A stretch of DNA of 16,736 bases from an uncultured Lachnospiraceae bacterium (GTDB lineage Bacteria > Bacillota_A > Clostridia > Lachnospirales > Lachnospiraceae), in NCBI GenBank assembly GCA_902783205.1, contig CACZQE010000054.1:1-16736 (forward strand). Reading direction: 5' to 3'. The position numbers and the translations under genes are program-made. This document shows, one piece after another, positions 2,049 through 5,641 of the stretch (its first letter is position 1; each line of letters starts with the position of its first letter). Below the pieces are notes generated by a model that was given only the letters and a program-made list of their open reading frames with translations, did not search any database and was not told the origin of the DNA.

Positions 2049-2483
2049 TTAATTCTTTCCGGTTGAGCCGAAACCTCCACGGTCCGGATTAGCCAGGACC
2101 TGAGCCTCTTCAAAATGTATGGCCGGCTGATGTTCCATAATACGGAACTGGCAGATCCGGTCATTGACCCGTATGTCCGTATCACGCATTGCGATCACAG
2201 GCATATGCCACTGATCGTTGTCTCCGCAATAGGACTCATCCACAATGCCCATGTGATTGGCCTGGATGATACCGAAGTTTTTATAAGTGGAGCTCCGGGG
2301 TACGATATGTGCTTCATATCCTTTGGGAAGCTCCATGGCAACACCTAAGGGAATCAGGGCGAACTGGCCTTTTTCCAGGTGCATGTCTTTTGCGGCCCGC
2401 AGGTCGATCCAGTCTGAAATGCCGTCTATATAAGTCAGCTTCTCGATTTCATCCGAGATATATCTGATACGAATGGTTTTCAT
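2049..2483 (-). CDS. dut: dUTP diphosphatase (dUTPase), trimeric family
   Basis: 144 residues, the usual length of the homotrimeric family, which hydrolyses dUTP to dUMP and pyrophosphate. This keeps uracil out of DNA and supplies dUMP for thymidylate synthesis. The five family motifs are visible: DLRAA (27-31), PRSS (62-65), [10 protein letters not shown] (79-88, including the catalytic Asp and Tyr), RICQF (109-113) and the P-loop-like C-terminal RGGFGSTG (135-142). Motif 1 is slightly divergent before DLRAA. The start codon overlaps the nrdG stop in an ATGA arrangement (2480-2483), indicating translational coupling in the dNTP operon. It is followed after 4 bp by comF. Confidence 0.95.
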
Positions 2484-2974
2484 ATGATCTCCCCGCTGAA
2501 TTCATCTGTAAGGCGGATCAGCCGCTGATTTGCACTGCCCCTGAATGGAAGTTCCAGACTCCTCTGTTCCTCTATGTAGGGGCCGTCGATCAGAAGATCC
2601 GTTACATCAAGTAAAGCTTTAACCCAGGGATCAGATGATGCCCGGTCGAGCAGATCCTCATAGATGAATCCTGTGTAGGTTATGACATTACCGCCTTCTT
2701 TCCGGACCATCTGTCCCAGACGGGCCAGGGCTTCCGGCTGGCAGAAGGGCTCTCCGCCTGAGAAGGTTACACCGGACAGAAGAGGGTTCTTCCGGTACCG
2801 GTCAAAGAGCTCATCTACTGTTGTAAGACGGCCTCCGTCAAAAGCGTGGGTCTGGGGATTGTGACATCCCCTGCAGTTGTGAGGGCAGCCCTGAACGAAT
2901 ATGGTGAAACGCAGGCCCGGCCCGTCTACGATGGAATCTTCGATGATATCGCTGATCCGCAGATTACATTCCAT
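2480..2974 (-). CDS. nrdG: Anaerobic ribonucleotide reductase activating enzyme (radical SAM)
   Basis: 164 residues. NrdG uses a [4Fe-4S] cluster and S-adenosylmethionine to place the glycyl radical on class III ribonucleotide reductase. The cluster motif CxxxCxxC is seen as [11 protein letters not shown] (Cys30, Cys34, Cys37). The SAM-binding GGE motif is at residues 73-75 (TFSGGEPF), and the N-terminal DGPGLR segment is typical of glycyl-radical activases. The length matches the short NrdG group, which lacks extra ferredoxin-like domains. The ATG at 2972-2974 lies inside the last codons of the upstream 51-codon glycyl-radical ORF (11-nt overlap), and the 3' end overlaps dut by 4 nt. The radical acceptor and its activator are therefore probably translated in a coupled way. 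Confidence 0.95.
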
Positions 2975-3119
2975 GCTTTACGCGGTCCTTTTCTTCCTCA
3001 CGCTTGGCATTGTTAAAGCGATCTACTGTTCCCACAAGATATCCTGTGATGCGGCGGATCCGCTCGAAACCTACGCCTTCGCCTACAGTTACTGTATCTT
3101 TGCTTCTTTTGATCGTCAT
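2964..3119 (-). CDS. Stand-alone glycyl-radical segment of class III ribonucleotide reductase (NrdD C-terminus), 51 residues
   Basis: The ORF starts at ATG 3117-3119 behind AAAGGAG (6-nt spacing) and ends in TAA at 2964-2966. The core reads FERIRRITGYLVGTVDRF followed by [14 protein letters not shown]. This matches the extreme C-terminus of NrdD proteins such as those of E. coli and phage T4, where RVCGYL carries the radical glycine and KQEEVKRRVKH ends the protein. Gly26 (in RITGY) is therefore the predicted radical site. The upstream 754-residue NrdD ends after its zinc site and lacks this motif, so this peptide probably docks onto NrdD and completes the active site, as GrcA (YfiD) can do for pyruvate formate-lyase. 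An in-frame TAA lies 8 codons before the ATG, which argues against a simple fused reading. The 3' end overlaps nrdG by 11 nt. I recall similar short ORFs being annotated as NrdD in related Clostridia, but could not check. Confidence 0.85.
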   Translation of the reverse strand: MTIKRSKDTVTVGEGVGFERIRRITGYLVGTVDRFNNAKREEEKDRVKHGM

Positions 3120-3156
3120 GGTAATCTCCTTTGTCTTTTTTTAATATTTTCCGGTG

Positions 3157-3179
3157 GGGCTGCTGGCAGTCAGCAGCCC
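3157..3179 (-). other. 9-bp stem hairpin between nrdD and the glycyl-radical ORF
   Basis: GGGCTGCTG (3157-3165) and CAGCAGCCC (3171-3179) are perfect complements around a 5-nt loop. It starts 46 nt after the nrdD stop in the minus-strand transcript. What follows is A-rich, not U-rich, so it does not look like an ordinary terminator. It may be an mRNA processing or stabilising element that sets the ratio of NrdD to the small radical subunit. Confidence 0.5.
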
Positions 3180-3225
3180 GGTCTATGGTTAAAACCTCCC
3201 GTCACGGCTATTACAGCTGCTTCGG

Positions 3226-5490
3226 TCAGGTTGTGCATTCATAAACAGGAACATTGGGGAACTTCTTGCGAAGTTCTCTCAGCTTCTCGGCCGGTACGGA
3301 TTCTCCTTCCCGTCTTCCGCAGCGCGGGCAGACATCGCCGATGACGCCGGTGTAGCCGCATACGGGATCCCGGTCAACAGGATGATTGACAGAACCGTAG
3401 CCGATGCCCTGCTCCTTCATGTAACGGATGATGTTCTCAAAGGCGGTCAGGTTGCGGCAAGTATCGCCGTCCAGCTCTACATAACTGATATGTCCCGCGT
3501 TGGTAAAGGCGTGATAAGGAGCCTCGAGCTGAATCTTACGATATGCCTGAATCGGGTAGTAGACCGGTATGTGGAAGGAATTGGTGTAATATGCCTTATC
3601 CGTGATTCCTTCGATTTCACCGTACTTGTTACGGTCCATCCGGACAAAACGTCCGCTCAGACCTTCGGCCGGTGTGGCCAGCAGTGTGAAGTTCAGACCG
3701 GTTTTCTCGGATTCCTGATCCAGCTTGTGACGCATGAAGCGGACAATCCGAAGTCCCAGCTGCTGAGCTTCCTCGCTTTCTCCGTGGTGTGCACCGCAGA
3801 GAGCCTTGAGGGTTTCAGCAAGCCCGATGAAGCCGACACTTAAAGTACCGTGCTTAAGGACTTCACCGATGGTATCGTCAATGTCCAGCTTGTCGGAATC
3901 GATCCAGATGCCCTGTGCCATCAGGAAGGGGTAATTACGCACTTTCTTTGCCGCCTGTATCTTAAAGCGGTGAAGAAGCTGGCGGATTACCAGATCCATC
4001 ATGTCTTCGAGCTTGTCGAAGAACACGTCTACAGCGCCGTTGGCCTCCAGACCCAGCCTGGGCAGGTTGATGGAGGTAAAACTGAGATTGCCCCGTCCGA
4101 AGGTACACTCCCTGGTGGGATCATAGTGGTTGCCCAGTACTCTGGTACGGCAGCCCATGTAAGCGACCTCGGTATTGGGATCTCCCGGCTTGTAGTAGGA
4201 GATGTTGAAGGGCGCGTCAAGGAAGCTGAAATTTGGGAACAGCCTCTTGGCTGATGTGGCAACAGCCTGCTGGAAAAGGTCGTAGTTGGGGTCGCCCGGG
4301 TTGAAGTTCACGCCTTCCTTCACCTTGAAGATCTGTACGGGAAAGATGGGTGTCTCGCCGGCTCCCAGACCGTCCATGGTTGCCTCAAGCAGCATGTGGG
4401 TCACCAGGCGTCCTTCCGGGGAGATGTCGGTTCCGTAATTAATGGAAGAAAAAGGAACCTGTGCTCCCGCGCGGGAATGCATGGTGTTGAGGTTGTGGAT
4501 TAGGGCCTGCATGGCCTGCTTGGTCTGATCACGGGTGTCGGTCCGTGCCTGTCTGACACAGAAGCTGTGCATCCGGCGGATCTCTTCTTCGGAAAGATCG
4601 GGAAGAGACAGGCTGAGGAGATCCTGAAGGAAAGAATCCTCATCCTCGAGCGCCAGGGGATGACTCACACCGCCCTCGATCAGGGTCTCAAGCATCCCGG
4701 CTTTGTCAGGCTCATAATCATGAACAGCTGTCACATAGGACTTCAAGGCATGGAAGTACTCTTTGTGGTAGGTCTTTGCCACACCGTCGGCCATGGCGAA
4801 ATCGAAGTTCGGCAGACTCTGTCCGCCGTGCATCTCATTCTGGTTTGCCTGGATGGCAATACAGGCCAGTGCCGCATACGTCTGAATGGACTGGGGCTCA
4901 CGGACGTAGCCGTGTCCGGTGGAAAAGCCTCCGTCAAAGAGCTTGGTCAGGTCTATCTGACAGCAGGTCTCTGTCAGCATGTAGAAATCCATATCATGGA
5001 TATGAATGTCACCGTTGACATGGGCTGCTGCGATATCCTTGGGCAGGACATGATTGATGATAAAGAACTTGGAACCTTCGGAACCGTACTTGAGCATGGT
5101 TCCCATGGCCGTGTCACCATCAATATTGGCATTCTCCCGCTTGATGTTCTCTGACTCTGCGTCGGAGTAGGTCAGACGGTGGTAGATGTCCATCAGATAG
5201 GACTCCGACTCACGGATCTTGGTATGTTCCGCGCGGTAGAGAATATATGCCTTGGCTGTGCTTGCAAAATCATAGCGGATCAGCGTCTCTTCCACAATAT
5301 CCTGTACCTGCTCGACGGTGGGTACCGGAATATCCGCAACTCTGTCGCAGACTTTCTGTGTGAGGTAGTTGAAATCCGCAGGCGTCATGTTGTCGTCTAC
5401 TGCCTGGCTTGCCATATGAATGGCATTCATGATCTTCATTGGATCAAAAGGGACCAGATCGCCGCTCCTTTTCTGTATCAGTCGTTCCAT
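3226..5490 (-). CDS. nrdD: Anaerobic (class III) ribonucleoside-triphosphate reductase large chain, lacking its own glycyl-radical tail
   Basis: 754 residues. NrdD reduces ribonucleoside triphosphates to dNTPs anaerobically, typically with formate as reductant. Residues 1 to about 95 form an ATP-cone regulatory domain (start MERLIQKRSGDLVPFDPMKI). The barrel carries TETCCQIDL (Cys176/Cys177), MHGGQSLPNFDFAMA, MGCRTRVLGN (Cys447, predicted thiyl-radical residue on the finger loop), GRGNLSFTSINLPRL and GFIGLAETLKAL. The end has a zinc-site-like DPVCGYTG and CPRCGR with only three cysteines (711, 721, 724) where four are usual; another Cys is at 752. No R-x-x-G-Y radical motif is present anywhere in the chain; it is on the next ORF. 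The ATG has GGAAGG about 9 nt upstream. It is the first gene of the nrdD-nrdG-dut-comF operon, with promoter and NrdR-like boxes about 90-190 bp upstream. Confidence 0.94.
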   Translation of the reverse strand: MERLIQKRSGDLVPFDPMKIMNAIHMASQAVDDNMTPADFNYLTQKVCDRVADIPVPTVEQVQDIVEETLIRYDFASTAKAYILYRAEHTKIRESESYLMDIYHRLTYSDAESENIKRENANIDGDTAMGTMLKYGSEGSKFFIINHVLPKDIAAAHVNGDIHIHDMDFYMLTETCCQIDLTKLFDGGFSTGHGYVREPQSIQTYAALACIAIQANQNEMHGGQSLPNFDFAMADGVAKTYHKEYFHALKSYVTAVHDYEPDKAGMLETLIEGGVSHPLALEDEDSFLQDLLSLSLPDLSEEEIRRMHSFCVRQARTDTRDQTKQAMQALIHNLNTMHSRAGAQVPFSSINYGTDISPEGRLVTHMLLEATMDGLGAGETPIFPVQIFKVKEGVNFNPGDPNYDLFQQAVATSAKRLFPNFSFLDAPFNISYYKPGDPNTEVAYMGCRTRVLGNHYDPTRECTFGRGNLSFTSINLPRLGLEANGAVDVFFDKLEDMMDLVIRQLLHRFKIQAAKKVRNYPFLMAQGIWIDSDKLDIDDTIGEVLKHGTLSVGFIGLAETLKALCGAHHGESEEAQQLGLRIVRFMRHKLDQESEKTGLNFTLLATPAEGLSGRFVRMDRNKYGEIEGITDKAYYTNSFHIPVYYPIQAYRKIQLEAPYHAFTNAGHISYVELDGDTCRNLTAFENIIRYMKEQGIGYGSVNHPVDRDPVCGYTGVIGDVCPRCGRREGESVPAEKLRELRKKFPNVPVYECTT

Positions 5491-5588: not shown

Positions 5589-5641
5589 ACAAAACACAAC
5601 ATTTTGTATGTTATGTTTTGTCGGAGCACAAAATAACGGAT
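5589..5641 (-). promoter_or_regulatory. 33-bp inverted repeat and two NrdR-like boxes at the nrdD promoter
   Basis: ACAAAACACAACA (5589-5601) and TGTTATGTTTTGT (5609-5621) are inverted repeats with one mismatch around a 7-bp centre. Within this, 5594-5609 (ACACAACATTTTGTAT) matches the NrdR-box pattern ACACAATATATTGTGT at 13 of 16 positions as judged by eye. A weaker match (about 10 of 16) sits at 5626-5641, exactly 32 bp away. NrdR, the ATP/dATP-sensing repressor of ribonucleotide reductase genes, usually binds two such boxes about three helical turns apart. Both sites lie just downstream of the predicted nrdD -10 element, where a repressor would block initiation. Confidence 0.6.

Follow-up and report, generated by a model that had tools for sequence, protein, structure and literature searches.

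Gene organization of the locus

The sequence analysed here, called the window throughout, is a 16,736-nt stretch of DNA from an uncultured Lachnospiraceae bacterium (positions 1 to 16,736 of contig CACZQE010000054.1, assembly GCA_902783205.1). Its reverse strand carries genes for a class III ribonucleotide reductase (RNR), NrdD, and for the activase NrdG, and between them a 51-codon open reading frame (ORF) encoding a glycyl-radical segment. RNR supplies all DNA precursors de novo, and in the class III enzymes a glycyl radical made by NrdG passes to a cysteine on the finger loop. An initial annotation, made from the sequence alone, read this arrangement as a two-chain enzyme with an exchangeable radical subunit. 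The features needed below are as follows, in window positions.

3226..5490, minus strand: nrdD catalytic chain, 754 amino acids (aa), with ATP cone, barrel, MGCR finger loop and Zn ribbon, without the radical-glycine segment
4150..4152, minus strand: codon of Cys447, the finger-loop (MGCR) cysteine and expected thiyl-radical carrier (from the motif; role from a passage in PMC9669993)
3319..3360, minus strand: C-terminal zinc-ribbon cysteines Cys711, Cys721 and Cys724 (from sequence)
3229..3300, minus strand: NrdD tail past the zinc ribbon, SVPAEKLRELRKKFPNVPVYECTT, kept in split Lachnospiraceae; in certain other lineages this tail looks like a decayed FERIRRITGY
3120..3225, minus strand: 106-nt spacer with the small ORF's ribosome-binding site (AAAGGAG at 3126-3132)
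2964..3119, minus strand: 51-aa glycyl-radical protein, proposed radical subunit of NrdD (Pfam and NCBIfam matches)
3042..3044, minus strand: codon of Gly26, within RRITGY and predicted to be the radical glycine (from sequence, and from alignment to 8p23 via a fused relative)
2480..2974, minus strand: nrdG, radical-SAM activase (TIGR02491, 134.7 bits, above cut-off)
2049..2483, minus strand: dUTPase-like gene, overlapping the end of nrdG (Pfam)

The 754-aa NrdD matches the Pfam families PF13597 (NRDD, 622 bits) and PF03477 (ATP cone, 68 bits), as well as the solved NrdD chains 8p23, 9d3x and 1h78 by sequence; PF02867, the class I/II large subunit, was not among its Pfam matches. Cys447 lies in the MGCR motif of the finger loop, and a passage in PMC9669993 assigns this single-cysteine motif to the class III finger loop. 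The chain ends ...CPRCGRREGESVPAEKLRELRKKFPNVPVYECTT, with its stop 30 codons past the last zinc-ribbon cysteine, and the RxxGY motif is absent. The radical glycine, expected in the same chain, is found on the 51-aa protein, which contains FERIRRITGYLVGTVDRF...DRVKHGM. Its ORF is preceded by AAAGGAG and is in a different frame from that of NrdD, and the nrdG start falls within its last codons. The missing RxxGY motif, the separate ORF in its own frame with AAAGGAG, and the nrdG start within it had been recorded in the initial annotation, and they hold on re-examination, as do its coordinates and its choice of Gly26 and Cys447.

Alignment to PF13597, which the same annotation had proposed as a check, gives NRDD model positions 1-531 of 562 for the NrdD and 533-562 for the small ORF (E 5e-8, above the curated cut-off), so that the two are complementary halves. 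The NCBIfam model PRK07111 (746 positions) divides in the same way, with 3-711 on NrdD and 710-744 on the small ORF. In a fused relative, the radical segment aligns with the ITGYLVGT stretch of the solved NrdD 8p23.

When 5.8 billion proteins were searched, at least 7991 of 7999 scored small candidates (28-89 aa) matched at E <= 1e-3, part of them probably fragments. PF01228, the C-terminus of pyruvate formate-lyase (PFL), was not among the Pfam matches of the small proteins scanned, and for these neither NCBIfam nor Pfam has a dedicated family, only whole-NrdD models. The split also has a bearing on annotation: of the small proteins in two listings of 120 each, few are named, and the catalytic chain resembles a truncated NrdD.

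Linked relatives

Close NrdD relatives were surveyed at 73 loci. At 27 of these a short radical ORF is linked to nrdD, as in the window; 13 (the Selenomonad group) have a linked long form, 11 are fused, in 19 the fetched flank shows no radical segment, and three are cut at contig ends. In the Lachnospiraceae form, the radical gene is within the operon and its product has a short N-terminus. The small ORF has its own ATG and 50-53 codons in 25 of the 27 linked short loci and in the window; in the remaining pair of loci, L013 (Coprococcus catus) and L072, the NrdD frame extends beyond the small-ORF start, and they are outside the measured set. In the 25 loci and the window, the spacer between the NrdD stop and the small ORF ranges from 2 to 126 nt, and the relative frame of the two ORFs is 0, +1 and +2 in 3, 8 and 15 of the 26. 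The nrdG ATG is by comparison fixed: in the window and all 25 measured relatives, it precedes the end of the stop codon of the small ORF by 11 nt. With all three frames and such spacers represented, frameshifting, read-through or sequencing error cannot explain the split. The readings as an intein, pseudogene, frameshift or read-through were rejected for the host loci, and recoding or sequencing error, raised at the outset as what might overturn the two-chain reading, is excluded by the three frames and by the unlinked loci described below.

A survey of the Lachnospiraceae for the same split had been suggested. A short query matched only 8 of 200 genomes in a sample of the Coprococcus catus family (around G030), always in short frames, so the split is not general there. 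Among cultured relatives, Catenibacillus scindens DSM 106146 (L020) has it.

Some other features of linked loci may be recorded here. In a more distant NrdD lineage (L168 1-1979, genome G558) there is a linked split: the NrdD ends CPNCGSVNVMEEEIEYDLEWPATGTTN, and next come a gene for a radical-type protein of 102 aa and one like nrdG. Eggerthella phage EL753P1 has an NrdD (L122, 1724-5155) whose finger loop is interrupted by an intein-like insertion; the protein stops past the zinc ribbon without a glycyl segment, and a radical-like segment lies some 400 bases downstream, with a frame change between RRI and TGY. dUTPase-like motifs are found again 3' of nrdG in the closer relatives of the window. 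Upstream of nrdD, the window has an inverted repeat, ACAAAACACAACAT..ATGTTATGTTTTGT, at 5589-5621. In L003, L005, L008 and L011, putative paired sites resembling the NrdR box are present 5' of nrdD. A PADLOC run gave no match.

Unlinked radical genes

The 19 genomes with a truncated NrdD and no linked segment were searched in full. A free radical protein was found in 18, in 17 of them on a contig other than that of NrdD and in G007 on the same contig, 73 kb away; the whole-genome search gave none in G004. The glycine is present at all 19 free-gene places (two are in G016). The NrdD is truncated in all 19 genomes, of which 14 have an additional distant NrdD (26-30% identity over the catalytic part) and five a single one. 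In G488 and G751, where the truncated NrdD and the free gene share a contig, the distance between them is 252 kb and 429 kb, respectively, so contamination is not the cause in these two cases.

The free proteins are typically longer than the window's, at about 89 aa, with the pattern M[VI]DVNV.GGKL..EEI.YYI...YPEK..., then FQRIRRITGYLVG...RVKH. Structure prediction gives the free long protein an N-terminal beta-alpha-beta-beta domain, with predicted local distance difference test (pLDDT) scores of 84-89 at residues 1-50. None of 274 PDB matches for this predicted domain reached E <= 0.001, and an apparent likeness to a ribosome hibernation factor was dropped for want of a significant PDB match. 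The domain may be a docking part, used when the gene is unlinked.

The neighborhood of the free gene differs between groups. In all 11 contexts outside Ruminococcus (L093-L099, L105-L108), but in none of the 5 from Ruminococcus, it has a rubrerythrin-like gene on its own strand and no more than 2.4 kb away; these counts cover 16 contexts of the 19 places, and the neighbors are syntenic, hence not independent. The adjacency is circumstantial evidence.

Free radical proteins alongside full-length NrdD

Free proteins of this type are not confined to genomes with a truncated NrdD. A fused NrdD of the same subfamily was seen in 11 genomes, seven of which (G049, G247-G252) also have a free glycine-bearing protein; the genome search found none in G046, G047, G048 and G253. 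In one family sample, around G016, 79 of 119 genomes match at E <= 1e-6: 41 have free proteins only, 23 fused only, 13 both, and two are ambiguous, fused being assigned by an open frame of 500 aa or more. At least one free protein has the glycine in 12 of the 13 genomes with both, i.e., in 12 of the 119 sampled; the glycine was likewise read in about half of the free-only genomes. G352 has free ORFs of the short type, perhaps parts of a second nrdD that is itself split. In a phylum-wide sample, 154 of 398 genomes match, with free and fused forms both among the matches listed.

Individual cases also come from long contigs. In G755 (a single 3.97-Mb contig), one full-length NrdD of another type is accompanied by a single free radical protein of 87 aa with RRITGY, and PF13597 and PF02867 have no further match. 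G854 (a single 3.22-Mb contig) and G604 resemble it, with additional copies. G376, where one 2.57-Mb contig carries both a fused NrdD and a free homologue, was at one point the best case for a spare part, and was dropped because the homologue has TDY rather than TGY. The spare-part state is retained without it, because the 12 of 13 genomes with both forms, the seven of 11 fused genomes, G755 and G854 all stand. The comparison with GrcA, the PFL spare part, made in the initial annotation for the window's split enzyme, gains support from these genomes, in which a full-length NrdD is accompanied by a free NrdD-type radical protein.

Several homologues depart from the usual forms. P0105 is an 81-aa protein with a zinc-ribbon-like CPNCGR and two copies of FERIRRI, only the second of which is followed by TGY. 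G315 has three free radical proteins (L212, L213, L214) with a different N-terminal part, ILKDFPKGVEPDEAFKEYWWEFE..., alongside a fused NrdD. In G799, a short protein (L153 1054-1302) resembles the N-terminal extension and ends ...YPFERIWRISTCNN rather than in RRITGY; it is possibly a decayed copy.

Evolution of the split

A tree was made from 33 NrdDs chosen from the set, under LG+G4 and with the C-terminal columns left out. A single clade of all split NrdDs was rejected by the approximately unbiased test (p-AU 2e-62), and at least three changes are needed to account for the fused rows; the fused NrdD of G376 is sister to the split Ruminococcus rows (support 95/93). On these grounds the covalent glycyl segment has likely been lost repeatedly, with the direction of change not fixed by the root of the tree.

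The tails of the truncated chains give a further lead. About 7 residues past the zinc ribbon, several split cores have what looks like a decayed FERIRRITGY stretch, such as IEVLRKLNGY (L180), VAHLKRIGAY (L165) and TERIPRIKG (L191). Compared with shuffled sequences, the 7-mer FERIRRI scores p <= 0.05 in 13 of 31 core tails. For the full 10-mer, compared in 18 of the 31, the best match is at offset 7 in 15 tails (fused NrdDs have it at 7-8), with p from under 1/4000 to 0.43. As a lead from the sequences, this would fit duplication followed by decay better than plain fission.

Interpretation and alternatives

The window locus very probably encodes an obligate two-chain class III RNR, a reading supported by the conservation of the separate ORFs, by the unlinked copies, and by long-contig genomes in which a split enzyme is the sole RNR detected. 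Chain 1 (754 aa) would provide the ATP cone, the barrel with Cys447 and the zinc ribbon, and chain 2 (51 aa) the Gly26 loop and the C-terminal tail, with NrdG making the radical on Gly26. By docking into the barrel in trans, chain 2 would allow Gly26 to reach Cys447, as the covalent domain does in an ordinary NrdD. Since the window NrdD has no radical segment, the small protein should be indispensable to it, rather than serving for repair alone.

What the two-chain enzyme is used for is a separate question. A passage in PMC3019208 describes the cleavage of class III RNR by oxygen at the glycyl radical, and a fresh small protein could then replace the radical carrier; exchange or repair of this kind is a plausible but tentative suggestion. 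As to origin, the two-chain enzyme probably evolved from an NrdD spare part. A broader picture is favored here, with reservations, in which these proteins form an NrdD-specific autonomous glycyl-radical family of Clostridia and Selenomonadaceae, with a trace in phage, about 50-125 aa long and many with the beta-alpha-beta-beta N-terminal docking domain, which started out as a spare part for NrdD cleaved by oxygen and has repeatedly turned into the sole radical carrier. In the first stage, free NrdD-type radical proteins probably existed next to full-length NrdD, as YfiD/GrcA does next to PFL; at a later stage, in several lineages, the catalytic chain would have lost its own glycyl segment, or let it decay, and come to depend on the free protein.

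Several points limit parts of this account or weigh against them. The two-chain activity and the radical are both predictions from sequence. When the in-frame split pair of L015 was folded as a single polypeptide in which Gly stood in for the stop, residues 753-821 had pLDDT under 50 and the radical segment was left unplaced, a result that speaks neither for docking nor against it. The linked short form could exchange, or could simply stay bound. Many split Lachnospiraceae have a second, distant full-length NrdD that bears a glycine motif of its own (~23-27% identity in the sequences fetched), which counts against essentiality of the split enzyme in those species, and the window locus may likewise not be the only RNR of its genome. 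The free homologue of G376 (L196 492-749) has aspartate for glycine (TDY, in ATDYLV), and one of three in G279 (L207) has ADY (SADYLV); these glycine-less paralogues are perhaps regulators or decaying copies. The clade rejected by the tree test had been named after a first tree (78 rows) was seen, and the decayed-copy signal is weak for any one tail, the rows being related.

A possible, if somewhat doubtful, alternative origin is plain gene fission, leaving a permanent two-subunit enzyme with no exchange role. This keeps the two chains, and is not exclusive with the explanation preferred here. It fits the window and its relatives, where the small gene is fixed in the operon with its 11-nt overlap with nrdG, an arrangement suited to constant, stoichiometric output. 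Against it stand the free radical proteins found alongside full-length NrdD, the extra domain of many free proteins, which would not arise by plain fission, the rejection of a single clade of splits, and the rubrerythrin-like neighbor in every one of the non-Ruminococcus contexts, but in none of the Ruminococcus ones.

It is improbable that the window locus is a decaying duplicate, with a second full-length NrdD doing the work. Many Lachnospiraceae relatives do have the second NrdD described above; a second NrdD in the split-NrdD genome G028 (L112 338-2848) has the glycine motif RITGYY, followed by a C-terminal stretch that appears from its sequence (TPTCPNCK) to be glutaredoxin/thioredoxin-like. 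Both nrdD and the small ORF are, however, under purifying selection. In 13 overlapping pairs of loci, uncorrected for multiple hits, the ratio of nonsynonymous to synonymous change (pN/pS) is 0.035-0.182 for the NrdD core and 0.136 pooled for the radical ORF, where it falls from 0.341 over the first 15 codons to 0.062 thereafter. Some genomes, moreover, appear to have nothing else. Among 14 picked mostly for long contigs, six (G265, G488, G444, G420, G799, G751) have only a truncated NrdD and one separate glycine-bearing ORF, with no PF02867 match; all six NrdD tails lack RxxGY and the radical ORFs have the glycine. The remaining eight each have a fused NrdD, a class I/II enzyme, or both. Seven less complete genomes (G010, G016, G017, G018, G022, G027, G043) agree with a two-piece NrdD as sole RNR, and PF02867 was not found in 41 of the 48 genomes encoding NrdDs of the set, fused ones included. 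A second complete nrdD had been foreseen as what might undo the two-chain reading. The distant full-length NrdD is indeed there in many relatives; the accompanying supposition of an inactive split locus has against it the selection on that locus and its standing elsewhere as the only RNR detected.

A still less probable alternative is that the small protein serves another partner, whether by acting on NrdG as a regulator or decoy or by providing the spare part of a different glycyl-radical enzyme. Unlinked free copies, two or three in some genomes (G016, G279, G330, G604), would suit such a role, as would the loss of the glycine in two of the free homologues read. The sequence is nevertheless of the NrdD type, not PFL, and genomes with only a truncated NrdD would be left with their sole detected RNR lacking a radical site. 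Finally, a single continuous NrdD chain, hidden by frameshift, stop read-through or sequencing error, is scarcely credible for the window and is refuted as a general explanation by the unlinked genes (18 of 19 other genomes, and hundreds of kb away on the same contig in G488 and G751), with the three relative frames, the 2-126-nt spacers and the small ORF's own ATG and ribosome-binding site also against it, even if a frame shared across an intervening stop is seen in three of the 26 short loci and some Selenomonad ones.

Comparison with known systems

If the two-chain reading is right, a stand-alone radical subunit would change the description of class III RNR, in which the radical glycine is within the catalytic chain, and provides a natural system for swapping, labelling or titrating the radical loop in trans. 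Many gut and rumen bacteria would appear to carry a two-piece, oxygen-sensitive RNR whose small part is often obligatory; if the spare-part origin also holds, some genomes encode in effect a pre-cleaved RNR with a replaceable radical cartridge. In the open-access literature, as far as its accessible passages go and with subscription papers and preprints outside the scope, neither a split class III RNR whose glycine sits on a second chain nor a spare part for NrdD was found; where the glycyl-radical domain is located in these passages, it is at the NrdD C-terminus. A passage in PMC3653736 mentions split RNR genes in some cellular organisms, with the class not named there.

Among RNRs, the ordinary class III enzymes (8p23, 9d3x, 1h78) have in common with the window locus the ATP cone, barrel, MGCR finger loop, zinc ribbon and NrdG, and differ in that the radical glycine is here on a separate polypeptide. 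Split class II enzymes, NrdJa/NrdJb, also have the RNR catalytic protein in two chains, but according to a passage in PMC9669993 they use adenosylcobalamin, with no glycyl radical, and NrdJb consists of other C-terminal domains. Phage RNR genes can likewise be in pieces, through introns, inteins and homing endonucleases (a passage in PMC3653736). The window split, by contrast, has no intervening element, and the break is at one functional boundary in many host lineages, with the parts sometimes unlinked.

Outside the RNRs, YfiD/GrcA and Y06I of phage T4, spare parts for PFL, are likewise small free proteins with an enzyme-like glycyl-radical segment. The free proteins of G755, G854 and some further genomes coexist with a full-length enzyme, as YfiD/GrcA does. 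YfiD/GrcA is known to be activated by the activase of its enzyme, and the same would be expected for the small NrdD protein. YfiD also has an N-terminal extension, and it repeats a stretch retained by the cleaved enzyme, according to a passage in PMC8683613. The same source, in the part seen, describes spare parts as validated for PFL only and allows that other glycyl-radical enzymes may have them, a possibility on which the present findings, if correctly interpreted, bear for NrdD. The differences from YfiD/GrcA are that the partner here is NrdD, with the sequence matching NRDD rather than PF01228, and that the enzyme chain of the window has no radical segment of its own. By fold family, active-site motif and activase the locus is a class III RNR, neither a PFL-type GrcA member nor a standard NrdD, and by analogy it should work on the GrcA principle.

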